Of a stretch of DNA of 64,000 nt, positions 39,615 through 54,570 are shown in pieces. The stretch comes from Hymenobacter sp. DG01. GTDB lineage: Bacteria; Bacteroidota; Bacteroidia; Cytophagales; Hymenobacteraceae. Under the pieces are notes generated by a model. The model did no database searches. It saw nothing but the letters and a program-made list of their open reading frames with translations, and was not told the DNA's origin. The DNA is taken from assembly GCF_006352025.1 (NCBI RefSeq), contig NZ_CP040936.1, forward strand, positions 806,001-870,000, read 5' to 3'. A program made the position numbers and the translations under genes. Each line of letters opens with the position of its first letter. Position 1 is the first letter of the stretch.

Positions 39615-40388
39615 CTATAACTTACGCACCCAGATGTTGCGGAAGCTGATGGGCGCGCTGGGGTCGCCGTGGGCCTGCAGCTTGATAGGCGAGGGGCCGT
39701 GGGCCTGCTGGTAGCTGGGCTTGCCAATGTACTGGGTAGGGCCGGCCAGTACCGTGTTGTTCTGCACTACTACCCCGTTAAACCACACCGTCACGCGGGC
39801 CGGCGCTTGCAGAGAGCCATCGGCCTTGAACACGGGCGCGGTCCAGAGCACGTCGTACGATTGCCACTCGCCGGGCTTGCGGGCGGGGTTAGCCAGCGGG
39901 ATGTGCTGCTTATAAATGCTGCCCGCCATGCCATTTACGTAGGTTTTGTTCTGGTAGGAGTCCAGAATCTGCAGCTCGTAGCCCAGGTCGCCCTTGCCGA
40001 TGGAGGCCAGAAACACGCCGCTGTTGCCGCGGGACTGTCCCGTTTCGCGCATGCCCGCTGGAATGCGCCACTCCAGGTGCAGCTGGTAATTGGTGAAAGT
40101 CTGCCGGGTTTCGATGTTGCCCGCTTTTTTGTCCACGGTCAGCAGGCCGCCCGCCACCTGCCACTTGGCCGGCGCGGTGCGGTTTTCGGTGCTCACCCAC
40201 GGGCTGAGGTCCTGGCCGTTGAAGAGCACCACGGCATCGGAAGGCGGAGGGGCCAGGTTGGGGCTGGCCGTTACGGTTTTCGGGACGGGCTCCCATACTT
40301 CCGTGTCTTCCGGTTTGCCGGTTTGCTGGGCCTGGGCCATCATCGAAAAGCTGAGAAATAATCCGGAAACAAGTAGAGCGGCCTTCAT
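39615..40388 (-). CDS. Secreted DUF1080 protein (3-keto-disaccharide hydrolase domain)
   Basis: 257 residues from ATG 40388; signal peptide MKAALLVSGLFLSFSMMAQAQ. The DUF1080 beta-sandwich (PF06439, related to concanavalin-like folds) shows DAVVLFNGQDLSPWVSTEN near 62, FTNYQLHLEWRIP near 115, and RGNSGVFL near 135, and ends ISFRNIWVRKL. Members have been shown to hydrolyse 3-keto-glycosides. Last gene of a nine-gene minus-strand cluster that also has a GMC oxidoreductase and cytochrome c, which fits that role. Periplasmic. 132 nt after the Hyi-like gene, with a palindromic repeat in the gap. Confidence 0.88.
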   Translation of the reverse strand: MKAALLVSGLFLSFSMMAQAQQTGKPEDTEVWEPVPKTVTASPNLAPPPSDAVVLFNGQDLSPWVSTENRTAPAKWQVAGGLLTVDKKAGNIETRQTFTNYQLHLEWRIPAGMRETGQSRGNSGVFLASIGKGDLGYELQILDSYQNKTYVNGMAGSIYKQHIPLANPARKPGEWQSYDVLWTAPVFKADGSLQAPARVTVWFNGVVVQNNTVLAGPTQYIGKPSYQQAHGPSPIKLQAHGDPSAPISFRNIWVRKL

Positions 40389-40420
40389 GGTAGGCAAGGG
40401 GGTAGGGAATAAAAGAAAGG

Positions 40421-40503
40421 TTGTCATGCCGAGTAGGAGCGAGGAATCAGGAGTAATCCACACGAGTTTAACCCAGATTCCTCGCTCTCGCTCGGCATGA
40501 CAA
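40421..40503. repeat. GTCATxCCGAGCG-type palindromic repeat, copy 1
   Basis: Arms 40421-40448 and 40476-40503 are complementary over 28 nt with three mismatches. The arm TTGTCATGCCGAG...AGCGAGGAATC is the same family as repeats at 42748-42826 and 55309-55393. It fills most of the gap between two genes of the 3-keto cluster. Confidence 0.85.
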
Positions 40504-40520
40504 AAACATGGCTGGCAGCC

Positions 40521-41411
40521 TTACACGTCGCAGAGCTGCACGGCCTGGCGCAGGGAGGCCAGCTTGTCGGCTTGCTGAGGCATGAACTCCTGGGCCACGT
40601 AGCCCTGGAAGCCGGTGGCTTTAATGGCGCGCATGATGGCGGGGTAGTTCAGCTCCTGCGCGTCCCCGATTTCGTGGCGGCCGGGTACGCCGGCCGTGTG
40701 GTAGTGGGCAATGTAAGCGTGGTGCTCGGTGAGAGTCCGGATAACGTCGCCCTCATTGATTTGCATGTGGTAGATGTCGTAGAGCAGCTTGAAGTTCTCC
40801 GAGCCCATCTTCCGGGCCAAGGCTACGCCCCAGCTGGTTCGGTCGCACTGGTAGTCTTTGTGGTCGATTTTGCTGTTGAGCAGCTCCATTACCAGCACCA
40901 CGTTGTGCTGAGCGGCCAGCTTCAGCAGGGGCTGCAGACCCCGGGCGCAGTTTTCCAGACCCTGGGCATCCGAAAGGCCTCGGCGACTGCCACTAAAGCA
41001 AATCAGGTTGCGGTAGCCGGCCTGGGCCACTTGCGGAATCATCTCGGTGTACTGCTTCTGCAGCTGGGCATGAAACCGCGGGTCGTTGAAGCCGTCGGTT
41101 AGGTTGATTTCGGCCCCGTTGCACATCGAGGACTCCAGCCCGTACTTCTTCAGAGTGGGCCAGTCCTTCGGCCTTACCAGGTCGATGCCTCGCAGGCCCA
41201 TTTCCTTGGCGGCCGCGCAAAGTTTCTCCAGAGGCATGTCCTGGAAGCACCAGCGGCACACGGCCTGTTTCAGCGCGCCCTTCAAGGCTTCGTTGCCGGT
41301 GGCTTTCTGCTCTTCAGAAGGAGAACAGGCCGCGGCCAGGCCCAGCGCGCCCACCGTGGCGGCACTGGTCAACAGGCCCTGCAAAGCGGCCCGACGGTTC
41401 CAGGTAGCCAT
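40521..41411 (-). CDS. Hydroxypyruvate isomerase-like TIM-barrel protein, Tat-type N-terminus
   Basis: 296 residues. MATWNRRAALQGLLTSAATVGALGLAAAC has a twin-arginine motif (NRRAALQG) and a lipobox-like LAAAC, so it is probably exported folded and perhaps lipidated. The barrel is of the sugar-phosphate isomerase/epimerase (xylose isomerase-like) superfamily, Hyi branch: metal ligands in VMELLNSK, YDIYHMQI, HTAGVPGRHE and AQEFMP. In this cluster it more probably acts on a keto-sugar than on hydroxypyruvate. Gap of 11 nt from the MFS gene. Confidence 0.87.
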   Translation of the reverse strand: MATWNRRAALQGLLTSAATVGALGLAAACSPSEEQKATGNEALKGALKQAVCRWCFQDMPLEKLCAAAKEMGLRGIDLVRPKDWPTLKKYGLESSMCNGAEINLTDGFNDPRFHAQLQKQYTEMIPQVAQAGYRNLICFSGSRRGLSDAQGLENCARGLQPLLKLAAQHNVVLVMELLNSKIDHKDYQCDRTSWGVALARKMGSENFKLLYDIYHMQINEGDVIRTLTEHHAYIAHYHTAGVPGRHEIGDAQELNYPAIMRAIKATGFQGYVAQEFMPQQADKLASLRQAVQLCDV

Positions 41412-41422
41412 AGGGGGTAGGG

Positions 41423-42688
41423 TTAGTTAGCGGCCGAAGCCAAGGCGGAAGTGGTATCGGCGTCGTCGTACGCGGCAGCTTCCGTGGCCTGGGCCTGGGG
41501 CCGGTCGCGGAACAGGAGCAGGAACAGCACCACCACTACCCCGGCAATGCCCGCCGGAATCAGCCAGATCATGCGCCAGTCGTGGGAGGTAGCCGAAAGC
41601 TGGTAGGCGTCGAAGATGCGGCCCGAGAGCAGGGTGCCAATGAGCATGCCCACCCCATAAGTAGCCAATGTAATGAAGCCCTGGGCTGAGCTTTTGAACC
41701 GCTCTCCCGCGAGGTTATCGGTGTAGATCTGGCCCGTTACGAAGAAAAAGTCGTAGCAGATGCCGTGCAGCACAATGCCCGCAATCAGCATCCAGTAGCT
41801 GCTTTCCCCATTGCCGTAGGCGAAAAACACGTAGCGCAACACCCAGGCTACCATGCCAATGGCCAGCATCTTCTTCACCCCCAGGCGGCTGAAAAATACC
41901 GGAATCAGGAGCATGAACAGCAGCTCCGACACCTGCCCGAGGCTTTGCACCCCGGCGGCGCCCTTCATGCCTACTTCGTTGAGGAAGGGGTTAGTAAAAC
42001 CGTAGTAAAAGGCTAGCGGAATGCAGATGGCAATGGAAGCCAGAAAGAAAATAAGATAGGAGCGGTTCTTGAGCAGGCCAATGGCATCGAGGCCCAGCAT
42101 GTCGCCCAGGGAAGTGGACTGGCCGCGCTTTACTGGTGGGGTAGCGGGCAAGGTGAAGCTAAACACGCCCAGCAGGGCCGAGGCTCCGGCCGCCATCAGG
42201 AAGGTGCTCTGCAGGCTGCCGCTTTGCTCCCAGTTCAGCCAGCCAATAGTGAGGCCGGCCACAATCCAGCCCAGCGTACCCAGTACCCGGATGGTGGCAA
42301 ACTCCTTCTGCGGGTTCTGCATCTGCCGAAACGCAATGGAGTTCACCAGGGCCAGCGTGGGCATGTACAGCACCATATAGGTGAGAATGTTAGGGTAGAA
42401 AGAGCTGAAGTCGGGGGCGGTGGAGGCCCGCCACAGCAGCAGCGCCCCGGCCAGGTGCAGCACCCCCAGAATCTTCTGGGCCGAGAAAAAACGGTCGGCA
42501 ATGAGCCCAATGATGAACGGGGCCACAATGGCGCCAATGGACTGAGTCAGAAATGCTACCCCCACCTGGGTGCCCGAAGCGCTAAGATTACGCAGCAGGT
42601 AAGTGCCCAGCGTCACGAACCACGCACCCCAGATAAAAAACTCCAGGAACATCATGATAGACAGCTTAATCCGGGTCGTGGCATTCAT
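41423..42688 (-). CDS. MFS transporter, nucleoside:H+ symporter (NupG/XapB) family
   Basis: 421 residues with 12 membrane segments. FLEFFIWGAWFVTLGTYL near 15 and the general layout match the nucleoside permease family (NupG-like) of MFS. In this locus, next to sugar oxidoreductases and TIM-barrel isomerases, the substrate is more likely a sugar or oxidised sugar; relatives with this context are common in Bacteroidetes. Inner membrane. It follows the cytochrome c gene after 160 nt that hold a palindromic repeat. Confidence 0.88.
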   Translation of the reverse strand: MNATTRIKLSIMMFLEFFIWGAWFVTLGTYLLRNLSASGTQVGVAFLTQSIGAIVAPFIIGLIADRFFSAQKILGVLHLAGALLLWRASTAPDFSSFYPNILTYMVLYMPTLALVNSIAFRQMQNPQKEFATIRVLGTLGWIVAGLTIGWLNWEQSGSLQSTFLMAAGASALLGVFSFTLPATPPVKRGQSTSLGDMLGLDAIGLLKNRSYLIFFLASIAICIPLAFYYGFTNPFLNEVGMKGAAGVQSLGQVSELLFMLLIPVFFSRLGVKKMLAIGMVAWVLRYVFFAYGNGESSYWMLIAGIVLHGICYDFFFVTGQIYTDNLAGERFKSSAQGFITLATYGVGMLIGTLLSGRIFDAYQLSATSHDWRMIWLIPAGIAGVVVVLFLLLFRDRPQAQATEAAAYDDADTTSALASAAN

Positions 42689-42747
42689 ACGTGGTGGGGT
42701 TTGGGAAAGGAATGGGGGTAGGGGAGCTGCTGGTCAGGTCGCTATCC

Positions 42748-42826
42748 GTCATCCTGAGCGGGAGCGAAGGACCTCTACAGAAGGTAATTGCTAACAGTGG
42801 AGGTCCTTCGCTTCACTCAGGATGAC
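42748..42826. repeat. GTCATCCTGAGCG-type palindromic repeat, copy 2
   Basis: Arms 42748-42775 and 42800-42826 are complementary apart from a one-base bulge and two mismatches (GTCATCCTGAGCGGGAGCG...). Same family as copies 1 and 3. It lies between the MFS and cytochrome c genes. Confidence 0.87.
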
Positions 42827-42848
42827 AGGCGCGGTACTTGCGGAAAAA

Positions 42849-43328
42849 CTACTTCAGGCTCAGGATGTAGCGGGTCATTTCCTCGGCATCGGCTTCAGAG
42901 AGGCCGGGGTGGGGCGTCATGGCAATATCGCCCCAGTTGCCTTTGCCGCCCTGAATAACTTTCTGGGCCAGCATCTTCACGTTGGCGGGGGTGTTGGGGT
43001 ACTTCTCCGCTACGGCTTTGTAGGCCGGGCCGAGCAGCTTATCGTTTTCGCGGTGGCAGCCGGTGCAGTCGGCGCCTTCAATCAGCTTGGCACCCCGGGC
43101 TACCGCGCCGCCGGTGGGCGCCGTGCCAATTTTGGTGGCGTTGGTATCTATCTGAGGCTGATGGGCTACGGCCGTGACGTTGGAGCCGGTGGTGCTGTCG
43201 GTGTTCAGGGTTTCTTCGGAGTCGGCGAGGGTATATTCCTCCTTGCCTTTACCGGCGGTTTTATCCGATTCAGAACCACACGAAGCCAAGGCGGCACAGA
43301 AACTCAAAAGCAGAAAAGCGTTTTTCAT
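42849..43328 (-). CDS. c-type cytochrome lipoprotein
   Basis: 159 residues. MKNAFLLLSFCAALASC is a lipoprotein signal with Cys at residue 17. A long acidic and Thr/Asn-rich linker (about 20-75) leads to a class I cytochrome c domain: CTGCH haem-binding motif near 88, LLGPAYKAVAEKY near 98, and the axial Met in DIAMTPHPGLSEADAEEMTRYILSL near 135. It would carry electrons from the periplasmic GMC/gluconate-dehydrogenase-like complex coded in the same cluster to the respiratory chain. Gap of 20 nt from the TIM-barrel gene upstream. Confidence 0.92.
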   Translation of the reverse strand: MKNAFLLLSFCAALASCGSESDKTAGKGKEEYTLADSEETLNTDSTTGSNVTAVAHQPQIDTNATKIGTAPTGGAVARGAKLIEGADCTGCHRENDKLLGPAYKAVAEKYPNTPANVKMLAQKVIQGGKGNWGDIAMTPHPGLSEADAEEMTRYILSLK

Positions 43329-43348
43329 AGGAACAGAAGCAGAGAAAG

Positions 43349-44401
43349 TTACAGACCGAGCAACTGGCGGTTACGGGCCTCGTCGGTGCCGGCCGCCGCG
43401 AAGTCATCGAAAGCCTTGTCGGTGACGCGGATGATGTGGTTTTGGATGAAAGCTGCGCCTTCGCGGGCGCCGTCTTCGGGGTGCTTAAGGGCGCATTCCC
43501 ACTCCAGCACGGCCCAGCCAGGGAAGTCGTACTGCGCCATCTTACTGAAAACGGCCTTGAAATCCACCTGCCCGTCGCCGAGGGAGCGGAAGCGGCCGGC
43601 GCGGTCCACCCAGCTCTGGTAGCCCCCGTACACGCCCTGGCGGCCGGTGGGGTTGAACTCCGCATCCTTGACGTGAAAAGCCCGAATCCGCTCGTGGTAG
43701 ATGTCGATGTACTCCAGGTAGTCGAGGCACTGAAGCACGAAGTGGGAGGGGTCGTAGAGCAGGCAGGCGCGGGGGTGCTGCCGCACTTTCTCCAGGAACA
43801 TCTCGTAGCTGATGCCATCGTGCAGGTCCTCGCCGGCATGCACCTCGTAGCACACATCCACCCCGCACTCGTCAAACGTGTTCAGAATGGGCAGCCAGCG
43901 TCGGGCCAACTCTGTAAAGCCAGTTTCCACGATGCTGGCCGGGCGTTGAGGCCAGGGGTACACCATGGGCCAGAGCAGGGCCCCACTGAAAGTGGCGTGG
44001 GCCGTGAGCCCCAGGTTCTGCGAGGCTTTGGCCGCGTACTTCAACTGCTGCACGGCCCACTCCTGGCGGGCGGCGGGGTTGCCGCGCAGGGCTTCGGGCG
44101 CGAAGCCATCGAACAGCTGATCATACGCTGGGTTTACGGCCACCAGTTGGCCTTGTAGGTGGGTTGAAAGCTCCGTGATTTCGAGGCCGGCGGCCTGCAC
44201 CTTGCCTTTCAGCTCGTCGGCGTAGGTCTGGCTTTCGGCGGCCAGCTGCAAGTCAATAAAGCGCTTATCGAGGGTAGGCAGCTGCACGCCCTTAAAGCCC
44301 AGGGAGCTGGCCCACTGACAGATAGACTCCAGGCTATTGAACGGCGGCTCGTCGGAAATAAACTGCGCCAGGAAAATGGCGGGTCCCTTGATGGTTTTCA
44401 T
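43349..44401 (-). CDS. Sugar phosphate isomerase/epimerase family TIM-barrel protein
   Basis: 350 residues, no signal peptide, so cytoplasmic. The xylose-isomerase-like TIM barrel has metal ligands in CYEVHAGEDLHD near 190 (Glu), YDPSHFVLQ near 222 (Asp, His), FHVKDAEF near 250 (His, Asp) and LEWECALKHPEDGA near 300 (Glu). In comparable loci such proteins act on 3-keto-sugars or their breakdown products (epimerase, isomerase). The gap to the Gfo/Idh gene upstream is only 6 nt, so they are translationally close and probably act together. Confidence 0.9.
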   Translation of the reverse strand: MKTIKGPAIFLAQFISDEPPFNSLESICQWASSLGFKGVQLPTLDKRFIDLQLAAESQTYADELKGKVQAAGLEITELSTHLQGQLVAVNPAYDQLFDGFAPEALRGNPAARQEWAVQQLKYAAKASQNLGLTAHATFSGALLWPMVYPWPQRPASIVETGFTELARRWLPILNTFDECGVDVCYEVHAGEDLHDGISYEMFLEKVRQHPRACLLYDPSHFVLQCLDYLEYIDIYHERIRAFHVKDAEFNPTGRQGVYGGYQSWVDRAGRFRSLGDGQVDFKAVFSKMAQYDFPGWAVLEWECALKHPEDGAREGAAFIQNHIIRVTDKAFDDFAAAGTDEARNRQLLGL

Positions 44402-44407
44402 ACGCAG

Positions 44408-45556
44408 CTATACGGTAAACTCAGTCCACTTCTGATCGGAGCGGCCCGAGGCAATTACGTTTTCAATAAAGGCCATGCCGCGCACTCCTTCCGCAATACC
44501 GGGGTAGTCGAGGGCTTCGGGCGGGGCAAGGGTGCCGCTGAGGTCGGCTTGCAGGCTGAGGGCGAAGTTGCGGTAGAGGTTGGCAAAGGCTTCGAGGTAG
44601 CCCTCGGGGTGGCCGGCCGGGGTGCGGGTGTTGTGGCGGGCGTAGGAGCTCGTGTAGCCGGCACCGGTCCGGCGAATTTCCGTGGGGCGGTCCAGCCACT
44701 TTACTAGCAGCGTATTGGCGTCGGCCTGCTGCCATTCCAGCCCACCTTTCTCGCCGTACACCCGCAGTCGCAGGTTGTTTTCCTCGCCGGCCGCCACTTG
44801 GGTAGCTACCAGCACCCCGCTGGCCCCACCCGTCAGGCGCAGCAGCACGGCCCCATCATCGTCGAGCTGGCGACCGGGCACTACCGTGTTGATGTCGGCG
44901 CAGAGCTGGGTGACCGTCAGACCCGTTACGTACTCCAGCAGGTTGAAGGCGTGGGTGCCAATGTCGCCCATAGCGCCGGCCACGCCGCTGCGGGCGGGGT
45001 CGGTGCGCCAGGAGGCCTGCTTGTTGGCGCCGCCTTCCTCGAAGGTGCTCAGCCAGCCCTGCGGATACTCCACGTAGGCCTTCCGAATGGTGCCCAGCTC
45101 GCCGGAAGCTACCAACTGCCGGGCCTCTTTCACCATGGGGTAGCCCGTGTAAGTATGCGTCAGGCAAAAGCGGCAGCCACTGGCGGCGGCTACCTGCTCC
45201 AGCTCCCGGGCCTCGGCCAGGGAAAACGTCATGGGCTTATCCAGCACAACGTGAAAGCCATTTTCCAGGGCCAGTTTGGCCGGCGCAAAGTGCAGGTGGT
45301 TGGGTGTCACGATGGATATCACCTGCACCCGCTCGGCTTCCGGCCGCTGTTTTTCCTGCTGAATCAGCTCCTCGTAGGAGATATAGACCCGCTCGGGGGG
45401 TAGCCCCAGCAGGTGCCCGCTGGCTTTCGAGGTTTCGGGGTTGCTGCTGAACGCGCCGGCTACCAGCTCATACAGTCCATCGAGGGCAGCGGCGTGCCGG
45501 TGCACGGCCCCGATAAAGGCCCCCTGCCCGCCGCCAATCATTCCTAATCGTATCAT
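44408..45556 (-). CDS. Gfo/Idh/MocA family oxidoreductase
   Basis: 382 residues. Rossmann start MIRLGMIGGGQGAFIGAVHRHAA with GxGxxG-like glycine run, then VVLDKPMTFSLAEA near 95 (the EKP-type motif, here DKP), and GDIGTHAFNLLEYVTG near 195 with the catalytic His. NAD(P)-dependent sugar dehydrogenase or reductase; no signal peptide. In the cluster it may reduce or oxidise the 3-keto sugar inside the cell. The ATG stands only four bases from a heptad-repeat palindrome, so the ribosome-binding region is made of the repeat. Confidence 0.92.
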   Translation of the reverse strand: MIRLGMIGGGQGAFIGAVHRHAAALDGLYELVAGAFSSNPETSKASGHLLGLPPERVYISYEELIQQEKQRPEAERVQVISIVTPNHLHFAPAKLALENGFHVVLDKPMTFSLAEARELEQVAAASGCRFCLTHTYTGYPMVKEARQLVASGELGTIRKAYVEYPQGWLSTFEEGGANKQASWRTDPARSGVAGAMGDIGTHAFNLLEYVTGLTVTQLCADINTVVPGRQLDDDGAVLLRLTGGASGVLVATQVAAGEENNLRLRVYGEKGGLEWQQADANTLLVKWLDRPTEIRRTGAGYTSSYARHNTRTPAGHPEGYLEAFANLYRNFALSLQADLSGTLAPPEALDYPGIAEGVRGMAFIENVIASGRSDQKWTEFTV

Positions 45557-45559
45557 TGA

Positions 45560-45690
45560 GTTGTGAGTTATCGGTTGTCAGTTGCCGGTTGTGAGTTGTC
45601 AGTTGTGAGTTGCCAGTAGAAAGTCTTTGCACCTAACAACTGGAAACTCACAACCGGCAACTGACAACTCACAACTCTCCACTGGCAACT
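45560..45690. repeat. Imperfect GTTnnnn heptad tandem repeat in inverted arrangement, copy 1
   Basis: Eight units of 7 nt starting with GTT (GTTGTGA, GTTATCG, GTTGTCA, GTTGCCG, GTTGTGA, GTTGTCA, GTTGTGA, GTTGCCA) run from 45560 to 45615, and the same kind of units run on the opposite strand to 45690. The arms 45574-45597 and 45645-45668 pair perfectly over 24 nt. It fills the gap between two genes of the 3-keto cluster. Confidence 0.9.
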
Positions 45691-45693
45691 GAT

Positions 45694-46299
45694 TTACGTG
45701 GTAGCCCAGGCCCGGTCGCCTTTTTTGTAGGGCACACAGCCGTCGTACCGGCCGGGAACAGGCAGGTAGCGCAGGGCCTTGGTGCTGCCCACTTCGGAGG
45801 TGAAGTAACCCAGCAGGGTCAGCTCCTTTATCATCCGGAAGTAGTGGTTGGGCGCTTCCCGGGTTTTAGTTTGGCTGTACTGCTTCTGCTCGGCATCAAG
45901 GGCCGTGAGCAGGGCCGTGCGCTGGGCGGGGGCCAGCTCCATAAAGCCTTTGCCGTTTTTCTGCTGGCTGGCCTGCTCCAGCTGGGTCAGGCCTTTCAGG
46001 AAAATCTGCTGATCGGCGGGCTTGTAGCAGTCCTTTACCATCACGGCCATGAAAGAGCCCACGTCGGCGGCTTTGGCGCCGGGCGTTTTGGTAGTGGGCA
46101 GAATGGTTTCACCTACTTCATTGAGGTAGGCCACCTGGCCCTGGCTGAGGAAGGGCTTTTCCGGCTTTCTGGCTTTGGCGGTGCCGCTCTTTTCCTTCTC
46201 GGCCTCCGGGGAGGAGCAGCTGGTCAGGAAATAGTCGCCGCCGATGAGGGTGCCACCCATGATGAGGGCTACGCGGGCTACTGCGTCTCTTCTGTTCAT
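45694..46299 (-). CDS. Gluconate 2-dehydrogenase subunit 3-like protein, lipoprotein or Tat-exported
   Basis: 201 residues. The N-terminus MNRRDAVARVALIMGGTLIGGDYFLTSC has RR and a lipobox-like Cys. After a charged linker the subunit-3 domain is seen: FLSQGQVAYLNEVGETILPTTKTPGAKAADVGSFMAVMVKDCY (about 50-92) and later FRMIKELTLLGYFTSEVG near 165. In gluconate, fructose and glucoside-3-dehydrogenases this small subunit guides the flavoprotein subunit through the Tat pathway and is part of the complex. The GMC gene lies 12 nt upstream, so they form the dehydrogenase core. Confidence 0.92.
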   Translation of the reverse strand: MNRRDAVARVALIMGGTLIGGDYFLTSCSSPEAEKEKSGTAKARKPEKPFLSQGQVAYLNEVGETILPTTKTPGAKAADVGSFMAVMVKDCYKPADQQIFLKGLTQLEQASQQKNGKGFMELAPAQRTALLTALDAEQKQYSQTKTREAPNHYFRMIKELTLLGYFTSEVGSTKALRYLPVPGRYDGCVPYKKGDRAWATT

Positions 46300-46311
46300 A
46301 GGGGTAGGGAG

Positions 46312-47988
46312 TTACACGTTTTGCTTTTTCAGCTCGCCCACGGCGTGGTCCACGGCGCGGGCCGTGAGGGCCATGTAGGTGAGGGAGGGGTTCTGGCAGG
46401 CCGCCGACGTCATGCAAGCGCCGTCGGTTACGTACACGTTGGGAGCGTCCCAAACCTGATTGTGCTTGTTGAGCACTGAGGTTTTCGGGTCGCGGCCCAT
46501 GCGGGCGGTGCCCATCTCATGAATGCCGCCGCCCATGTTGTAGCCATTGTTGTAGGTCTTCACGTTTTTGAGGCCCGCTTTTTCCAGCATTTCCTGGGCG
46601 TCCTGCATCATATCGATGCGCATTTTCTGCTCGTTGTCCCGAATGCTGGCGTCCATGGCCAGTACGGGCAGCCCCCACTTATCCTTCTTGGTTTTATCGA
46701 GGAAGACGCGGTTATCGTGGTAGGGCAGGGTTTCGCCGAAGGCTCCCAGCCCCATGGTCCACTGGCCCGGCTCGGTGAGGGCGTCCTTGAAATCACCGCC
46801 CAGACTCATCTCCGCAATTTCCCGGCTCCAGCCCTCTCGGCCGGCCCCGCCCTGGTAGCCGAAGCCCCGGATATAGTCGCGCTTGTCGCCAAACAGGTTG
46901 CGGAAGCGGGGCACGTAAATGCCGTTGGCCCGGCGTCCGTACACGTATTGGTCCTCGTAGCCCGGCATTTCGCCATGAGCCCCCGCCCGGAAGTGGTGGT
47001 CCATGAGGTTGTGGCCTAGCTCGCCGCTGCTGCTGCCCAGCCCCTCGGGCCACACGTCAGTGGCAGAATTCATCAGCACCCAGGCCGAGTTGAGGGTAGA
47101 GGCGTTCAGGAAGATAATCTTGGCGAAATACTCGTAGGTCTGGTTGGTTTCCGCATCGAGCACCTCTACCCCCTTAGCCCGCTTGGTATCCTTGTCGTAG
47201 AGGATTTTGGTGACGATGGAAAACGGCCGCAGGGTGAGGTTGCCGGTAGCCACCGCCGCCGGCAAGCTGGCCGACTGCGTGCTGAAGTAGGCCCCGAACG
47301 GGCAGCCCAGCCAGCACTTGTTGCGGTACTGGCAGTTGGTGCGGTTGTTATGGGCTTTGGTGATGTTGGCCGTGCGGCCAATGACCATGTGGCGGTCTTT
47401 GAAGTTCTTTTTGATGCGGGCGGCCACGTCCTTTTCCACGCAGTTCATTTCCATAGGCGGCATAAAGTCGCCGTCGGGGAGCTGGGGCAGCCCGTCGCGG
47501 TTGCCGCTGATACCGGCAAACTTCTCTACGCGGCTATACCACGGGGCCAGGTCCTGGTAGCGGATGGGCCAGTCCACGGCAACGCCGTCCTTGGCGTTGG
47601 CCTCAAAGTCGTAGTCGCTCCAGCGGTACGATTGGCGCCCCCACATCAGGGAGCGGCCGCCCACCTGGTAGCCCCGGAACCAGTCGAAAGGCTTCACCTC
47701 CACGTAAGGGCTTTCCTTTTCATCTACCCAGAAATCGAGGTTGCTCTCGTTCAGGGTGTAGTCGCGGCCCAACACGGGGTAGTCGGCTATCATCTGCTGG
47801 GTTTTGCCGCCGCGGTGGGGTAGCTCCCAGGGCGCCTTATTGGCATTCACGTAGTCCTTAATGTGCTCTACGTTGCGGCCACGCTCCAGCATAATGGTCT
47901 TGAGGCCTTTCTCCGTCAGCTCTTTAGCGGCCATGCCGCCCGAAATGCCGGACCCGATGACAATGGCATCGTAGGTGTTTTTTTCCAT
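46312..47988 (-). CDS. GMC-family FAD oxidoreductase (gluconate/glucoside dehydrogenase large subunit type)
   Basis: 558 residues. FAD-binding fold at the start: AIVIGSGISGGMAAKELTEKG near 8 and ERG near 35. GMC pattern in GGRSLMWGRQSYRWSDYDF near 113, and the C-terminal active-site region HEMGTARMG near 495 (His) and NPSLTYMALTARAVDHAV near 535. Cys-containing stretch NCQYRNKCWLGCPFG near 220 is typical of this branch. No signal of its own, expected to be exported with the subunit-3 protein. Would oxidise a sugar hydroxyl, likely C3 of a glycoside, and pass electrons to cytochrome c. Repeat-filled gap upstream. Confidence 0.93.
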   Translation of the reverse strand: MEKNTYDAIVIGSGISGGMAAKELTEKGLKTIMLERGRNVEHIKDYVNANKAPWELPHRGGKTQQMIADYPVLGRDYTLNESNLDFWVDEKESPYVEVKPFDWFRGYQVGGRSLMWGRQSYRWSDYDFEANAKDGVAVDWPIRYQDLAPWYSRVEKFAGISGNRDGLPQLPDGDFMPPMEMNCVEKDVAARIKKNFKDRHMVIGRTANITKAHNNRTNCQYRNKCWLGCPFGAYFSTQSASLPAAVATGNLTLRPFSIVTKILYDKDTKRAKGVEVLDAETNQTYEYFAKIIFLNASTLNSAWVLMNSATDVWPEGLGSSSGELGHNLMDHHFRAGAHGEMPGYEDQYVYGRRANGIYVPRFRNLFGDKRDYIRGFGYQGGAGREGWSREIAEMSLGGDFKDALTEPGQWTMGLGAFGETLPYHDNRVFLDKTKKDKWGLPVLAMDASIRDNEQKMRIDMMQDAQEMLEKAGLKNVKTYNNGYNMGGGIHEMGTARMGRDPKTSVLNKHNQVWDAPNVYVTDGACMTSAACQNPSLTYMALTARAVDHAVGELKKQNV

Positions 47989-48008
47989 AAAACGGGTGGG
48001 ATTAATCG

Positions 48009-48140
48009 GTTGCCGGTTATCAGTTCTGAGTTGCCGGTTGCCAGTTGCGAGTTGTCAATGAGAAAGGAGGGTAGGCAGAAGGGCCTGAGCACCGGCAACT
48101 CACCCATAACAACTGGTAACTCACAACCGGCAACTCACAA
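48009..48140. repeat. Imperfect GTTnnnn heptad tandem repeat in inverted arrangement, copy 2
   Basis: Seven 7-nt units (GTTGCCG, GTTATCA, GTTCTGA, GTTGCCG, GTTGCCA, GTTGCGA, GTTGTCA) from 48009 to 48057; inverse-strand units run from about 48091 to 48140 and reach the stop codon of the upstream TIM-barrel gene. Same family as 45560-45690 but different in unit order. Confidence 0.88.
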
Positions 48141-49040
48141 CTACACCAGGGTGCGCTTGATGTGGGCAATGCTTTTCTGGATGCTGTCGAAGGGAGAGCC
48201 GGGTGTCTGGTCCTGCTCCACGAAGAAGTACTTCAGGCCCGCCGTGTTGGCCTGGGCGAAGATGCGCTTGAAGTCGATGACGCCGCTGCCCACCTCCGTG
48301 AAGTCGCGCTTAGGCGTGTTGTCCATGTCCTTGACGTGCCAGAGCGGGAAGCGGCCGGAGTGCTTCTGAAACAAAGCCACCGGGTCCTGGCCCGCCTTGG
48401 TGGCCCAGTACAGGTCCAGCTCCATTTTCAGCAGATCTTTATCGGTGGCGCTCAGCAGCACATCGAAGGGCATCTGGCCTTCCAGAGGCATAAACTCGAA
48501 GTCGTGGTTGTGGTAGCAGAGCTGGATGCCGGCTTTCTTGCACCGCTCCCCGGCCTTGTTGAGGCGGTCGGCCAGCAGCTTGTAGTGGTCGAGGTTGCCC
48601 CGCTCAGCTTCCGAGAGGTAGGCGCAGACCATGTACTTCACGCCGGCTTGGGCTGCGTCGTCCACGGCTTTGTCCCAGCCGTGCAGCATAGTGCCTTGCA
48701 CAGGCTGGCCTTTGTCCTGCTCCTCGCCGAGGCGGTAATGGCTGCTGGGCATAATCAACCCGGTTTGCTTGAGCTGCTTGGCGAAGGCCGCTGGCTCCAT
48801 GCCATAAAACTTCTGGCTGCCCGTGTAAGTGGCGCCCTCCACGGAGGTATAGCCCAGCTTCGCGATGCGGGCCAGGGTGCCGGCCGGGTCTTTCTGCATG
48901 GCCTCACGCACGGTGTAAAGCTGCAGACCGATGTAGGATTTGGGGACAGGGTTGGCGGCCGAAAGCAGGGTAGGCGACACCAGGGCCCCGGCCGAAAGCA
49001 GGGCAGCCGACTTCAGGAAGTCGCGGCGGGAGGTTGACAT
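48141..49040 (-). CDS. Sugar phosphate isomerase/epimerase family TIM-barrel protein, Tat-exported
   Basis: 299 residues from ATG 49040, chosen because MSTSRRDFLKSAALLSAGALVSPTLLSAAN is a clear twin-arginine signal (SRRDFLK); the longer frame has no signal. Barrel of xylose-isomerase type: GLQLYTVREAM near 36, CYHNHDFEF near 175 (His, Glu), MELDLYW near 207 (Asp), WHVKDMD near 235 (His, Asp), and FVEQDQTPGSP near 270 (Glu). Periplasmic after Tat export. First gene of the cluster; probably acts on a keto-sugar. Upstream region carries the 21-bp motif shared with the GH30 operon. Confidence 0.91.
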   Translation of the reverse strand: MSTSRRDFLKSAALLSAGALVSPTLLSAANPVPKSYIGLQLYTVREAMQKDPAGTLARIAKLGYTSVEGATYTGSQKFYGMEPAAFAKQLKQTGLIMPSSHYRLGEEQDKGQPVQGTMLHGWDKAVDDAAQAGVKYMVCAYLSEAERGNLDHYKLLADRLNKAGERCKKAGIQLCYHNHDFEFMPLEGQMPFDVLLSATDKDLLKMELDLYWATKAGQDPVALFQKHSGRFPLWHVKDMDNTPKRDFTEVGSGVIDFKRIFAQANTAGLKYFFVEQDQTPGSPFDSIQKSIAHIKRTLV

Positions 49041-50428: not shown

Positions 50429-52672
50429 TTAAATCAGCTTATCAGGGGTAATGGGCAATTCCCGGATGCGTTTGCCGGTGGCGTTGAACACGGCGTTGGC
50501 AATGGCCGGGGCCACGCCGATAATGGCAATTTCGCCGATGCCTTTCGTGCCCAGGGCATTCACGTACGGGTCCGGTTGGTTTACGAAAGCAACCTCCACA
50601 GCCGGCGAGTCGGCGTGCACGGGTACGTGGTAGTCGGCGAAGTCTTTGGTAACGTAGCGGCCAAACCGGTCATCCATGCGGGCGTGCTCCATCAGGGCCA
50701 TGCCGATGCCGCCCACGGCGCCGCCTTTCATCTGGTTACCGGCGGTTTTCTCGTTTACAATAGTACCCGCATCGGCGCAGGAAACCAGCTTGCTCACCCG
50801 CACCTCGCCCGTAAGCTGGTGCACGCGCACCTCGGCAAAGTGCACCGAGAAGGAGTACATAGAGTACTTCTGGCCCTCGCCGCCGGGTTTGGCTTCCACC
50901 ATTACGGCCGTACCGCCGGCCTGCTTGAGCACATCGGCGTAGGAAACGCGGGTGTCTTTGTTGCCGCCCACCGTGAGGTAGCCATCCTGCATGGTTACAT
51001 CTTCTTTTCGGGCCGACGTGAAGGCCGGATTACTGGCGGCGGCCAGGGTGCGCAGCTTGTCCTTCAGAGCCAGGCAGGCTTCCTGGGTAGCCGGGCCCAC
51101 ACTGTTCACGGTGGAGGAGCCGCCCTGGGTGCCCGCCTTCGGGAAGGACGAGTTGCCCAGCTCAAACCGGATTTTATCCGGCGAAATGCCCAGCGTGTCG
51201 GCGGCAATCTGAGTCATGGCCGTGCCGGTGCCCGGGCCAATGTCGGTGGTGGCGCACTGCAGCAGCACGGTGCCATTGGCCAGTAGCTGGGCGCCCACCG
51301 TGGCGGCGCCGCGGTGCGCCCCGAAGGTTCCTACCCCCATGCCGTAGCCAATCATCCAGTCCCCGTCGCGGAGGGAGCCGGGCTTGAGCTGGCGCTTGCT
51401 CCAGCCGATGCGGTCAGCCCCCAGCTTGTAGCATTCCTTCAGAAACTTGGTGCTCCAGGGCTTGTTCTTTTCCGGGTCCTCGTCGGTGTAGTTGCGTAAG
51501 CGGAACTCCAGCGGGTCGATGTTCAGCAGGTAGGCCATTTCATCCATGGCCGACTCCAGAGCAAACGCGCCGGTGGCCTCGCCGGGGCCGCGCATCCAGA
51601 TGGGCGAGCACACATCCAGCGAAGCCAGGCGGTAGCGCGTCGTCACGTTCGGCGACTGGTACATCATGCGCGTTTGGGCCAGGGTGGCTTCGGTAAACTC
51701 CTCGTAGGTAGAAGTTTGGCCGATGCTCTCATGGGTGATGCCCGTGATTTTGCCGTCGGGAGTGGCGCTCATACCCAGCTTCTGCCAGGTGTAGGGCCGG
51801 TAGCCCACCATGGTAAACATCTGCTCCCGGGTCAGCATCAGCTTTACGGGCCGGTTCACCACTTTAGCCGCCAACACGGCCGCTGCCTCGTGGGGCCAGC
51901 TGTGCAGGGCATTGCCGAAAGCCCCGCCCACGTAGGTAGCAATTACTTTTACGTTTTCCTCGGGCAGGTTCCACTGCTTGGCAAAGTCGCGGCGGGTAGC
52001 CATGGTGCCCTGGGTTTTGTCGTAGAGCGTGAGCCGGTCGGGCGCTTCCCAGTGCGCCGTAATGGCCTGCAGCTCCATGGGGTGGTGCACCTCGGTGGGA
52101 ATCACGTACTCCGCTTCCAGCTTCACGGCACCCGTTTTGTAAGCATCCACCTGACCGCGCTGGTAGTCGTTCATGGGGTGCTTGGGGTTCTTCTTGGCGG
52201 CGGTGGGTAGGAAAGCTTTGTCGGCGTTGGCCTCCAGGTTGGTTTCGTGCTTTTCCTTGGCATACTGCGCCTTCACGAGCCCGGCGGCGTAGCGGGCCCG
52301 GGCCCAGCTATCAGCCACTACCACAGCAATAGGCTGGTCATTGAAGCGGATTTTGTCGTCGTTGAACACCTGCAGGGGGTTGCCCTGGGTTTGGGGCTGC
52401 GAGGGGTCCTTACCCTCAGGCTTAGGGCCCTGGGGCTTCGGGGCATTGAGGTGGGTGATGACGGCCAGCACACCCGGCGCGCGCTCGGCGGCTTTGGTGT
52501 CGAGGCCAGTGAGGCGGCCTTTCGTGACGGTGCTACCCACCAGCACGGCGTAAGCCATGTTGGGCAGTTGGTACTCGGCCGAGTAGGTAGCTGCGCCCGT
52601 TACTTTCTGGTGGCCGTCCACCCGGTTCATCGGCGCCCCGATTTGCTTTTTCGGCTTGGGTTGTTCGTTCAT
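50429..52672 (-). CDS. Xanthine dehydrogenase family, molybdopterin-binding subunit
   Basis: 747 residues. Mo-cofactor subunit of the XDH/aldehyde oxidoreductase family (YagR/PaoC type): GAPMNRVDGHQKVTGAATYSAEY at the start, EVHHPMELQAITAHWE near 200, GGAFGNALHSWPHE near 255, MRGPGEATGAFALESAMDE near 365, GGSSTVNSVG near 525, and the catalytic Glu in GTKGIGEIAI near 715. Substrate not decidable (aldehydes or N-heterocycles). Third gene of the operon, 11 nt after the FAD subunit. It has no Tat signal and would be exported with the Fe-S subunit. Confidence 0.94.
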   Translation of the reverse strand: MNEQPKPKKQIGAPMNRVDGHQKVTGAATYSAEYQLPNMAYAVLVGSTVTKGRLTGLDTKAAERAPGVLAVITHLNAPKPQGPKPEGKDPSQPQTQGNPLQVFNDDKIRFNDQPIAVVVADSWARARYAAGLVKAQYAKEKHETNLEANADKAFLPTAAKKNPKHPMNDYQRGQVDAYKTGAVKLEAEYVIPTEVHHPMELQAITAHWEAPDRLTLYDKTQGTMATRRDFAKQWNLPEENVKVIATYVGGAFGNALHSWPHEAAAVLAAKVVNRPVKLMLTREQMFTMVGYRPYTWQKLGMSATPDGKITGITHESIGQTSTYEEFTEATLAQTRMMYQSPNVTTRYRLASLDVCSPIWMRGPGEATGAFALESAMDEMAYLLNIDPLEFRLRNYTDEDPEKNKPWSTKFLKECYKLGADRIGWSKRQLKPGSLRDGDWMIGYGMGVGTFGAHRGAATVGAQLLANGTVLLQCATTDIGPGTGTAMTQIAADTLGISPDKIRFELGNSSFPKAGTQGGSSTVNSVGPATQEACLALKDKLRTLAAASNPAFTSARKEDVTMQDGYLTVGGNKDTRVSYADVLKQAGGTAVMVEAKPGGEGQKYSMYSFSVHFAEVRVHQLTGEVRVSKLVSCADAGTIVNEKTAGNQMKGGAVGGIGMALMEHARMDDRFGRYVTKDFADYHVPVHADSPAVEVAFVNQPDPYVNALGTKGIGEIAIIGVAPAIANAVFNATGKRIRELPITPDKLI

Positions 52673-52683
52673 GAGTTCGGGGC

Positions 52684-53670
52684 TTAGGCTACGCTGGCGG
52701 CGGTTTTCAGCGCCTGAATGATGGTATTGGGGCCCAGCTTGAGCTTGTAGGCATTGTGCTTGAAGGCTTTAGCTCCCTGCATGGCAATAGTGGCGGCCTG
52801 CCGGAAGCTTTCTTCGGTGGCGGGCTTGCCGACTAGGGCCTGCTCGGCGGCCGTGAGGCGCCAGGGCTTGTGGGCTACCCCACCCATGGCTAAGCGGGCG
52901 GCTTTGATGTTGTTGTTGCCATCAATGTCCAGCGCTGCTGCCACTGAAAGCAGGGCGAAGGCGTAGGAGGCCCGCTCGCGCACTTTCTGGTAGTGCACAT
53001 GCTTGGTGAAGGGCCCATCGGGTACGTCCACGGCCGTAATCAGCTCACCTGGCTCCAGAGTGGTGTCCTTCTGGGGCATGTCGCCGGGTAGGCGGTGCAG
53101 CTCGGCGAAGGGGATGCTGCGGTTGCCTTTCGGGCCGCTGACCTGCACGGTAGCATCGAGGGCCACCAAGGCCACGCTCATGTCGGAGGGGTGCACGGCA
53201 ATACACTTATCCGAAAACCCGAAGATGGCGTGCATGCGGTTGATGCCTTCTAAGGCGCCACAACCAGTGCCCGGCTCGCGCTTGTTGCAGGGCATGGTTG
53301 TGTCGTAGAAGTAGGAGCAGCGGGTCCGCTGGAGCATGTTGCCACCCACGGTGGCCATGTTGCGCAGCTGGGCCGAGGCGCCGGCGTTGAGGGCCAGGGC
53401 CAGCAGAGGCTGCCGCGCGCGCACCTGCTTGTCGTCGGCTACCGTTGAGTTCAGAGCCAGCGCCCCGATGCGCAGCTTGCCGGGGTCGGCGTCGATGCGG
53501 GTGAGGGGCAGGCGGTTGATATCGACCAGCTTCTGCGGGGTCATCACCCCACGCTTCATCAGATCGACGAGGTTGGTGCCGCCGGCAATGAAGGTAGCGG
53601 TGGCATCTTTCGCCACGGCGTCAATGGCGGCCTGCTGCTTGGTGGGGCGGACGTATTGGAACTGATTCAT
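52684..53670 (-). CDS. Xanthine dehydrogenase family, FAD-binding subunit
   Basis: 328 residues. FAD-binding PCMH fold: TFIAGGTNLVDLMKRGVMTP near 30, ATVGGNMLQRTRCSYFYD near 105, and FGFSDKCIAVHPSDMSVALVALDA near 150. The Cys-rich loop TRCSYFYDTTMPCNKREPGTGCG fits the PaoB/YagS branch, whose FAD subunit carries an extra 4Fe-4S cluster; four Cys are available. 9 nt after the Fe-S gene and 11 nt before the Mo gene. Confidence 0.94.
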   Translation of the reverse strand: MNQFQYVRPTKQQAAIDAVAKDATATFIAGGTNLVDLMKRGVMTPQKLVDINRLPLTRIDADPGKLRIGALALNSTVADDKQVRARQPLLALALNAGASAQLRNMATVGGNMLQRTRCSYFYDTTMPCNKREPGTGCGALEGINRMHAIFGFSDKCIAVHPSDMSVALVALDATVQVSGPKGNRSIPFAELHRLPGDMPQKDTTLEPGELITAVDVPDGPFTKHVHYQKVRERASYAFALLSVAAALDIDGNNNIKAARLAMGGVAHKPWRLTAAEQALVGKPATEESFRQAATIAMQGAKAFKHNAYKLKLGPNTIIQALKTAASVA

Positions 53671-53679
53671 ACTGGGTCG

Positions 53680-54315
53680 TTATACTTTTTGTCCGCCGCC
53701 TTTGACCTCCTGAATGGCCGCCACAATGTTGGAATAAGCGCCGCAGCGGCAGATGTTGCCGCTCATGTACTCCCGGATTTCGCCCTCCGAGTCGGCCTTG
53801 CCTTCCCGGATGCACGCCACTGCCGACATAATCTGGCCGGGGGTGCAGTAGCCGCACTGGAAACCGTCGTGCTTCACAAAGGCCTCCTGCATGGGGTGCA
53901 GCTTGTCGCCGTTAGCCAGGCCCTCGATGGTCGTGATTTTCTTGCCCTCGTGCATCACGGCAAAGCTCAGGCAACTGTTCACGCGCTGCCCATCTACGTG
54001 CACGGTGCAGGCGCCGCACTGGCCGTAGTCGCAGCCTTTTTTGGTGCCCGTGAGATGCAGGTTTTCGCGCAGAAAGTCCAGCAGCGTGGTGCGGGGTTCA
54101 ATGGAAACCTTGTGCTTAACGCCGTTCACTTCCAGCTTGAGCGGGATTTTCTCGAAAACGGCAGCCACTTTCTCGTCCAGCTCGGCGGCGGCGGCCTGCA
54201 CCAGCGGCCCCGGCACCAGAGCCATAGCCGTGAGTAGCGACGATTGCTTCAGGAAGCTGCGGCGGGCCTCGTCGGGGCCGGTGCCGGGCGTATCGTGTTC
54301 AGAGTTCATAGCCAT
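53680..54315 (-). CDS. Xanthine dehydrogenase family, 2Fe-2S subunit with Tat signal
   Basis: 211 residues from ATG 54315 (ATG 54309 is equally possible). EARRSFLKQSSLLTAMALVPGPLVQAAAAE near 20 is a twin-arginine signal (RRSFLK), which marks this as the exported PaoA/YagT type. Two 2Fe-2S clusters: plant-type CDYGQCGACTVHVDGQ near 100 with a further Cys, and CGYCTPGQIM near 155 with CRCGAY near 190. First gene of the operon, passing electrons from the Mo site to FAD or a periplasmic acceptor. Confidence 0.94.
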   Translation of the reverse strand: MAMNSEHDTPGTGPDEARRSFLKQSSLLTAMALVPGPLVQAAAAELDEKVAAVFEKIPLKLEVNGVKHKVSIEPRTTLLDFLRENLHLTGTKKGCDYGQCGACTVHVDGQRVNSCLSFAVMHEGKKITTIEGLANGDKLHPMQEAFVKHDGFQCGYCTPGQIMSAVACIREGKADSEGEIREYMSGNICRCGAYSNIVAAIQEVKGGGQKV

Positions 54316-54570
54316 AGTTGAAAAGGGCAAAACAAAGGGTGGCCCAAGTAGGACAAAGACCCGACAATGCCGCTGTAGTTGCGGCCAGTGTGCGTCAGTA
54401 ACCGGCGTTCAGTACTTAAGTTAAGGACAAGCGCAGGAAATTCATCCTATAAATCCCTGAAAAAAGCCTGCTGTACTTAGGCAAGCAGAACCGTTTCAGC
54501 CGGAGGGTTCAGCAGCAAATAGGAGGTAGCAGAACAGGACCCCGATCTTATCAGGTTGCTGCTGAAGTTG

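Follow-up and report, generated by a model that had tools for sequence, protein, structure and literature searches.

The GlycDH/Gfo/OGE/HYD operon of Agrobacterium tumefaciens carries out oxidation, elimination, hydration and reduction (passages of PMC10628242), and the lgdA/B1/B2/C levoglucosan locus of Bacillus smithii takes the same four chemical steps (passages of PMC7676230). The lac region of Caulobacter crescentus encodes a dehydrogenase, a DUF1080 protein, a transporter, two epimerases and a reductase, and Pedobacter and Indibacter are named as cases among the Bacteroidetes (passages of PMC9007349). Here we analyze a 64,000-nucleotide stretch of Hymenobacter sp. DG01 (contig NZ_CP040936.1, positions 806,001 to 870,000; hereafter the window), in which nine open reading frames, all on the minus strand, lie within 39615..49040. 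From 49040 downwards they encode a TIM-barrel protein (TIM1), a GMC flavoprotein, a homologue of gluconate 2-dehydrogenase subunit 3 (subunit 3), a Gfo/Idh/MocA oxidoreductase (Gfo/Idh), a second TIM-barrel protein (TIM2), a cytochrome c, a permease of the major facilitator superfamily (MFS), a third TIM-barrel protein resembling hydroxypyruvate isomerase, Hyi (TIM3), and a DUF1080 protein. The locus belongs to an already published kind, similar sets with fitness or biochemical data being described in passages of PMC9007349, PMC10628242 and PMC7676230.

We consider it highly probable that the nine genes form a glycoside-utilization locus that runs from periplasm to cytoplasm and is of the known oxidation–elimination–hydration–reduction kind. 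The original prediction of a 3-keto-glycoside locus that works by oxidation instead of hydrolysis, in which exported proteins oxidize and cleave the substrate and the last steps are cytoplasmic, is supported by the likeness of TIM2 to structure 8ro4, by that of TIM1 to the Agrobacterium O-glycoside eliminase AtOGE and by gene co-occurrence. The pathway takes its family assignments and the putative TIM1 and TIM2 activities from homology; we infer its C3 regiochemistry, export via subunit 3, transported compound, reductase direction and substrate, and the roles of DUF1080 and TIM3. In the periplasm, the GMC/subunit 3 pair, exported on the twin-arginine translocation (Tat) signal of subunit 3, would oxidize C3 of the sugar in a glycoside or disaccharide and pass electrons to the lipoprotein cytochrome c. 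There, TIM1, as an eliminase of the Mn type, and perhaps DUF1080 would break the glycosidic bond, giving the aglycone or second sugar and a 2-hydroxy-3-keto-glycal (or 3-keto-sugar). The MFS permease would import the glycal or keto-sugar, TIM2 would add water to yield 3-keto-glucose and Gfo/Idh would reduce this to glucose.

Likeness to the Agrobacterium operon extends to all four steps, to a TIM1 with the AtOGE pattern and to a TIM2 close to 8RO4, which we take to be the Agrobacterium hydratase. That operon consists, in the passages describing it, of a dehydrogenase, one further oxidoreductase and two isomerase-like genes, to which the window adds a cytochrome c, DUF1080, MFS and TIM3 (PMC10628242). 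TIM1 is exported by its signal, whereas export of AtOGE goes unmentioned in PMC10628242, which contains neither 'periplasm' nor 'signal peptide'. The B. smithii locus, unlike the window, has a first enzyme dependent on nicotinamide adenine dinucleotide (NAD), no flavoprotein complex and adjoining genes for an ATP-binding cassette (ABC) transporter (passages of PMC7676230). Compared by description and not by sequence, the window differs from the Caulobacter lacABC/DUF1080 lactose locus in having three TIM barrels, including the Hyi-like TIM3. The model, metal site and HxH pair of TIM3 agree with YcjR of Escherichia coli ycjQRS (3-keto-D-glucoside 4-epimerase, 6WN6), whose gene has two dehydrogenase genes and a kojibiose phosphorylase gene as neighbors; TIM3, unlike YcjR, is exported.

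The nine families recur together

Named loci are the best 80 of at least 581 confirmed candidates, picked by likeness to TIM3, and counts on them lean towards near kin. Family counts refer to the 52 loci with full 10-kb flanks (28 of 80 were dropped) and to profiles whose underlying alignments contain the counted loci themselves. Judged by family-level likeness, 36 of the 52 have the complete set of nine families no more than 10 kb from TIM3; they come from Hymenobacter, Mucilaginibacter, Pedobacter, Flavobacterium, one Flavobacteriaceae metagenome-assembled genome, Pontibacter, Arcticibacter, Cesiribacter and Terrimonas. Singly, cytochrome c was found in 45 loci, DUF1080 in 44, GMC, subunit 3, Gfo/Idh and TIM2 in 43 each, TIM1 in 42 and MFS in 39, with 333 of 357 neighbors on the TIM3 strand. 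DUF1080 searched by BLAST from the window proteins, with a 19-kb limit, was found in 23 of 53 loci, versus the 44 of 52 by profile. GMC is present in 64 of the 80 loci, always on the TIM3 strand and in 14 of them at most 300 bases away. The window's gene order is kept exactly in six Hymenobacter loci (L049–L054), and GMC is accessory in this genus (22 of 37 genomes at ≥85%).

Of 395 Bacteroidota genomes, 93 encode TIM3, and the GMC clade is present in 88 of these (kinship ignored); 22 genomes have the GMC clade without TIM3 and 5 have TIM3 without the GMC clade. The two genes lie within 10 kb in at least 38 of the 93 genomes and within 300 bases in at least 23, both figures being lower bounds based on a single TIM3 row for each genome (93 of 100 rows), on the first 67 rows for GMC from a shortened list and on 3 GMC candidates scored per genome. 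Beyond Bacteroidota, a Xanthomonas sacchari plasmid carries nine matching annotated genes in two divergent groups with a LacI regulator, and the annotation of a Sphingomonas parapaucimobilis plasmid shows a similar set, in which the third TIM barrel did not match TIM3. Links to taxa named in PMC9007349 hold at genus or species level only: a Halomonas PA16-9 GMC (67.6%), an Algoriphagus locus (L116) and a TIM3 of Vreelandella (Halomonas) titanicae (55%).

The grouping of the nine families is not chance. Co-occurrence in related genomes, proposed as a check alongside the original prediction, is borne out by the 36 of 52 loci and the 88 of 93 TIM3 genomes, while the combination, then thought unusual, proves to be common, given these 36 loci, the Xanthomonas plasmid and the published similar sets.

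Predicted cleavage, import, hydration and reduction

TIM1 matches 8tcd at 134 bits (8tcd, 8tcs and 8tct at about 130) and the AtOGE structure 8bvk at 69 bits, the latter over TIM1 residues 154–277 on chain positions 110–236. AtOGE binds its metal through His132, Asp163 and His189, with Glu233 weak, and His134 is catalytic, H134A being inactive (passages of PMC10628242). TIM1 residues H176, H178, D208, H234 and E274 (query numbering; the true start adds 1) stand at offsets of 44, 44, 45, 45 and 41 from AtOGE H132, H134, D163, H189 and E233, and each is ≥95% conserved in 55 TIM1 sequences; the first two stand as H176-N-H178. E67, H100 and E206 are likewise ≥95% conserved in these sequences and may correspond to AtOGE E39, H66 and E161. 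TIM1 thus appears to have the active-site pattern of AtOGE, and a putative eliminase activity is assigned to it by homology.

The DUF1080 protein scores 150 bits against PF06439 (cut-off 26.8), carries an export signal read from its sequence and has 4qhz as its closest solved relative (258 bits), its profile also reaching 8rr2, 8tda and 8tde; PF06439 has two matches elsewhere in the genome, one of them below the cut-off. According to a 2024 paper on such loci, beta-3-keto-glucosides reportedly go to the AtOGE type and alpha-3-keto-glucosides to a DUF1080-like lyase; should this hold, both anomers would be handled between TIM1 and DUF1080. A 3-keto-O-glycoside lyase of Bacteroides thetaiotaomicron was used on an alpha-glucoside, in a passage of PMC13273386 where the DUF1080 label was not seen.

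TIM2 aligns end to end (residues 1–350) with 8ro4, deposited as '2-hydroxy-3-keto-glucal hydratase', at 614 bits, and its MxTxxGP start, which has no leader, is ≥95% conserved in 54 sequences. By homology, TIM2 is a predicted 2-hydroxy-3-keto-glucal hydratase, which suggests that the imported compound is probably the unsaturated 2-hydroxy-3-keto-glycal and not the keto-sugar alone. Import of a keto-sugar followed by reduction by Gfo/Idh had been proposed from the sequence at first; the cytoplasmic end of that scheme stands, but the hydration step, to which the likeness of TIM2 to 8ro4 points, had been missed. ABC importer genes take the place of the window's MFS gene inside the set on Paracoccus and Palleronia plasmids, which supports the predicted importer role of the MFS permease. 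The best solved match of Gfo/Idh is 3v5n (389 bits), and its gene stands beside that of TIM2 in the compared loci. Two named families were rejected for Gfo/Idh, the BT_2158-type glycoside 3-dehydrogenases (NF058561, 32 of the 750 bits of the cut-off) and the levoglucosan dehydrogenases (NF052479, 98 of 650).

A hydrolytic variant would make DUF1080 a true 3-keto-disaccharide hydrolase, with the 3-keto-sugar imported and TIM1 and TIM2 serving minor substrates. Passages of PMC9007349 call DUF1080 a hydrolase, naming it as the 3-ketotrehalose hydrolase (BT2157) and as a proposed 3'-ketolactose hydrolase, and the family, close or distant, is in 44 of the 52 loci; however, the TIM2 and TIM1 types are nearly as constant (43 and 42), and a dedicated hydratase is most sensible if a glycal forms. 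We regard this variant as unlikely and favor elimination followed by hydration.

TIM3, an exported Hyi-like family

Current annotations of TIM3 are 'hydroxypyruvate isomerase family' or 'TIM barrel protein'. A Foldseek search with the TIM3 model ranked YcjR first (E 2.8e-12; template-modeling (TM) scores 0.68/0.76), with a D-psicose-type epimerase (8.0e-12) and 3ngf (8.4e-12) nearly tied at ranks 3 and 4. The YcjR-type fold and site residues are present, E176, D212, H215, H236, H238, R245 and E275 being common to TIM3 and YcjR, and all but H238 common to Hyi too. Identity to YcjR is 22% over 240 columns, and YcjR forms a very long tree branch (9.78) whose placement is unsure.

In the proposed pathway, TIM3 would have a 3-keto-sugar as its substrate beyond the cytoplasmic membrane, the simplest role being that of an epimerase or isomerase. 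A more specific proposal, which we offer tentatively and think doubtful as it stands, is that TIM3 is a new family of exported periplasmic 3-keto-hexoside 4-epimerases converting 3-keto-galactosides to 3-keto-glucosides; this is the YcjR reaction, because 3-keto gulose is the same compound as 3-keto galactose (D-xylo-hexos-3-ulose). If true, one broad 3-dehydrogenase, an eliminase, the glucal hydratase and the reductase would convert lactose and other galactosides to glucose while bypassing the Leloir pathway, and the epimerase would answer the question of the fate of 3-ketogalactose, called unknown in a passage of PMC9007349. With two galactokinase-type matches in its genome, Hymenobacter sp. 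DG01 has no obvious need of TIM3 to use galactose itself. In a literature search on the galactose step and such loci, which left subscription papers outside, we found no role assigned to TIM3, and the term '3-ketogalactose' appeared only in PMC9007349.

Alternatively, TIM3 could simply isomerize hydroxypyruvate or oxo-tetronate in the periplasm, with small sugar acids as substrates and no connection to 3-keto-glycosides. Its top NCBIfam families are Hyi (TIGR03234, 107 bits) and 2-oxo-tetronate isomerase (92 bits), and the structural Z scores of 3ngf (24.3) and E. coli YgbM (1k77, 24.0) exceed that of YcjR (23.1). Both family scores nevertheless fall far under the cut-offs of 353 and 325, TIM3 branches as a clade separate from the Hyi and YgbM rows (100/100), on which grounds the TIGR03234 assignment was rejected, and the protein is exported and accompanied by the GMC clade in 88 genomes versus 5 without; such an isomerase seems to us improbable, and action on a 3-keto-sugar remains our working proposal.

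TIM3 also occurs without GMC nearby, and may therefore work apart from the flavoprotein. A TIM1-like gene adjoins it in three such loci (L134, L135 and L136), and further cases are L118, L124 and L127 (Arenibacter), with CTP synthase and YidC-like neighbors in L118 and similar gene sizes in L124. When the five TIM3 genomes lacking the GMC clade were searched for the BT_2158 family, one (G403) scored above the cut-off and four below. Apart from this TIM1-like gene, the Pfam families of some neighbors revealed no common context at the GMC-less loci L137 (G403), L135 (G369), L107 and L118. A haloarchaeal TIM3-like protein with the HxH pair is encoded on a Halosolutus gelatinilyticus plasmid (L163, 3989–6366) between Gfo/Idh and GH4 genes; GH4 enzymes work by oxidation and elimination (passage of PMC7676230).

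Predicted oxidation by the GMC complex

GMC, subunit 3 (PF13618) and cytochrome c are encoded together, the make-up of the LacABC/GlycDH type. Three GMC cysteines (C219, C225 and C229), ≥95% conserved in 63 sequences, align with a Cys-rich stretch of 6a2u whose cysteines presumably bind an Fe-S cluster, and H490 and N533, which we assume to be the usual catalytic pair, are conserved to the same degree. The genome holds one full-length GMC match and, elsewhere, a single PF13618 match of only 24.4 bits. In related enzymes, subunit 3 carries the GMC subunit across the membrane; its twin arginine here is ≥95% conserved in 61 sequences, as are C88-x-x-C91-H92 and M137 of the cytochrome c in 54. Oxidation at C3 is predicted because of the gene context.

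Several observations weigh against the pathway as drawn. The closest solved relatives of GMC in the PDB are the large subunits of flavin adenine dinucleotide (FAD)-dependent glucose and fructose dehydrogenases (≤113 bits), which oxidize carbons other than C3, and none of the nine locus proteins reaches an NCBIfam cut-off. The residue correspondence between TIM1 and AtOGE is read from offsets and the motif, not from aligned columns. Outside Hymenobacter, TIM1 is 32–47% identical and probably a sister gene; two Hymenobacter loci (L151 and the plasmid locus L038) hold one close and one distant TIM1. DUF1080 is the least constant part, being close (≥62%) in 13 of the 36 nine-family loci and distant in 23, and its labels conflict, a further paper reportedly making it a lyase and not a hydrolase. 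On the Xanthomonas plasmid, Gfo/Idh and TIM1 are 31% and 30% identical to those of the window, and TIM3 was not found in the fetched flank of two of seven plasmid loci with GMC at ≥66% (Ketogulonicigenium and Gemmatirosa).

That the dehydrogenase is of an ordinary aldose, gluconate or fructose type, with the remaining genes a separate inositol-type pathway lying beside it by chance, would fit these PDB relatives and a weak IolE likeness of TIM1 and TIM2 but is very improbable, given IolE scores of 57.6 and 58 bits against a cut-off of 290, the closeness of TIM2 to a glycal hydratase and a set that stays grouped across Bacteroidota and in Proteobacteria.

Locus layout and export signals

The nine-gene, one-strand set with short gaps is present as originally described, all families having Pfam support (AP_endonuc_2 three times, GMC N and C, Gluconate_2-dh3, GFO_IDH_MocA, Cytochrom_C, Nuc_H_symport/MFS and 3keto-disac_hyd, which is DUF1080). 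The coordinates (Table 1) were kept overall, with the TIM1 start at 49040 and the DUF1080 start more plausibly at ATG 40388 than at GTG 40463. In gene order, the gaps counted from these coordinates are 152, 12, 137, 6, 20, 160, 11 and 132 bases. The genome comprises 5.04 Mb in two contigs, and the nearest protein matches are to Hymenobacter guriensis for GMC (93%) and Hymenobacter sediminis for TIM3 (95%).

The predicted split between periplasm and cytoplasm follows from export signals on TIM1, TIM3, subunit 3, the cytochrome and DUF1080 and from the leaderless TIM2 orthologues. Read from the sequences, TIM1 and TIM3 have a twin-arginine motif at the N-terminus, TIM3 and subunit 3 a lipobox-like Cys as well, the cytochrome c a lipoprotein-type start and DUF1080 a Sec-type signal ending AQA-Q. 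The Tat profile scores 21.4 bits on TIM1, slightly below its cut-off of 22.7. No export signal was found in the sequences of TIM2, GMC and Gfo/Idh.

Table 1 Genes of the locus, with coordinates in the window and predicted roles
Feature	Position	Strand	Basis
TIM1: predicted Tat-exported 3-keto-glycoside beta-eliminase (AtOGE-like)	48141..49040	-	AP_endonuc_2 82 bits; 8tcd and 8bvk matches; conserved site residues
GMC flavoprotein, predicted glycoside 3-dehydrogenase catalytic subunit	46312..47988	-	GMC N and C Pfam; Cys aligned with 6a2u
Gluconate 2-dehydrogenase subunit 3 homologue, Tat/lipobox start	45694..46299	-	PF13618 143 bits
Gfo/Idh/MocA oxidoreductase, predicted cytoplasmic 3-keto-glucose reductase	44408..45556	-	Pfam; 3v5n 389 bits; adjoins TIM2
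TIM2: predicted cytoplasmic 2-hydroxy-3-keto-glucal hydratase	43349..44401	-	8ro4 614 bits
Lipoprotein mono-haem cytochrome c, predicted dehydrogenase electron acceptor	42849..43328	-	Cytochrom_C 42.7 bits
MFS permease (Nuc_H_symport), predicted keto-sugar or keto-glycal importer	41423..42688	-	PF03825 390 bits
TIM3: Tat-exported Hyi-like lipoprotein, predicted 3-keto-sugar epimerase or isomerase	40521..41411	-	Family, structure and co-occurrence data
Secreted DUF1080 protein (PF06439), predicted second 3-keto-glycoside cleaving enzyme	39615..40388	-	PF06439 150 bits; 4qhz 258 bits

Substrate clues and neighboring features

The plasmid copy of the locus in Hymenobacter volaticus (L038) adjoins genes for SusC/D, a carbohydrate kinase and a GH65 enzyme (L038, 8403–10304), and the E. 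coli ycj operon with YcjR (L154, 5885–8152) holds a kojibiose phosphorylase, which we take to be GH65 too. The H. volaticus GH65, SusD and kinase had no match in 100 loci, SusC was matched in 2 of the 100 and none of the four has a match in the window, so they give no general substrate clue. A second GMC gene (48–50%) stands beside the main locus in L065 (Mucilaginibacter conchicola), L146, L147 and L148, in the last three with its own subunit 3 and a TIM1-like gene, as if two dehydrogenases of different specificity shared one downstream pathway. A Croceicoccus marinus plasmid (L047, 4978–13378) encodes a TIM barrel and DUF6379 pair, presumably the make-up of C-glycoside deglycosidases. The pair is accompanied by GH3, Gfo/Idh, subunit 3, GMC (48%) and a TIM2 orthologue (73%), and the region may represent a variant of the pathway for C-glycosides.

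A xanthine-dehydrogenase-like set of three genes (molybdopterin, FAD and 2Fe-2S subunits) occupies window positions 50429–54330, upstream of TIM1 and in the same orientation, with a DUF2383 gene in between. Each of the four longest gaps of the locus (48003–48137, 45562–45690, 42735–42860 and 40420–40520) contains a very strong hairpin (-54 to -70 kcal/mol, z -6.0 to -9.1). The repeat motif CAACTCACAACTGACAACT (≤2 mismatches) occurs at 35 places in the genome and another motif at 4 (control 0 for both), and the gap hairpins look like dispersed intergenic palindromic repeats.

Implications

Many Bacteroidota carry the oxidation–elimination–hydration–reduction route as a recurring locus of nine families, divided between the periplasm and the cytoplasm. 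Within it, TIM3 stands out as a family that could supply the galactose step now lacking from the lactose 3-keto pathway.

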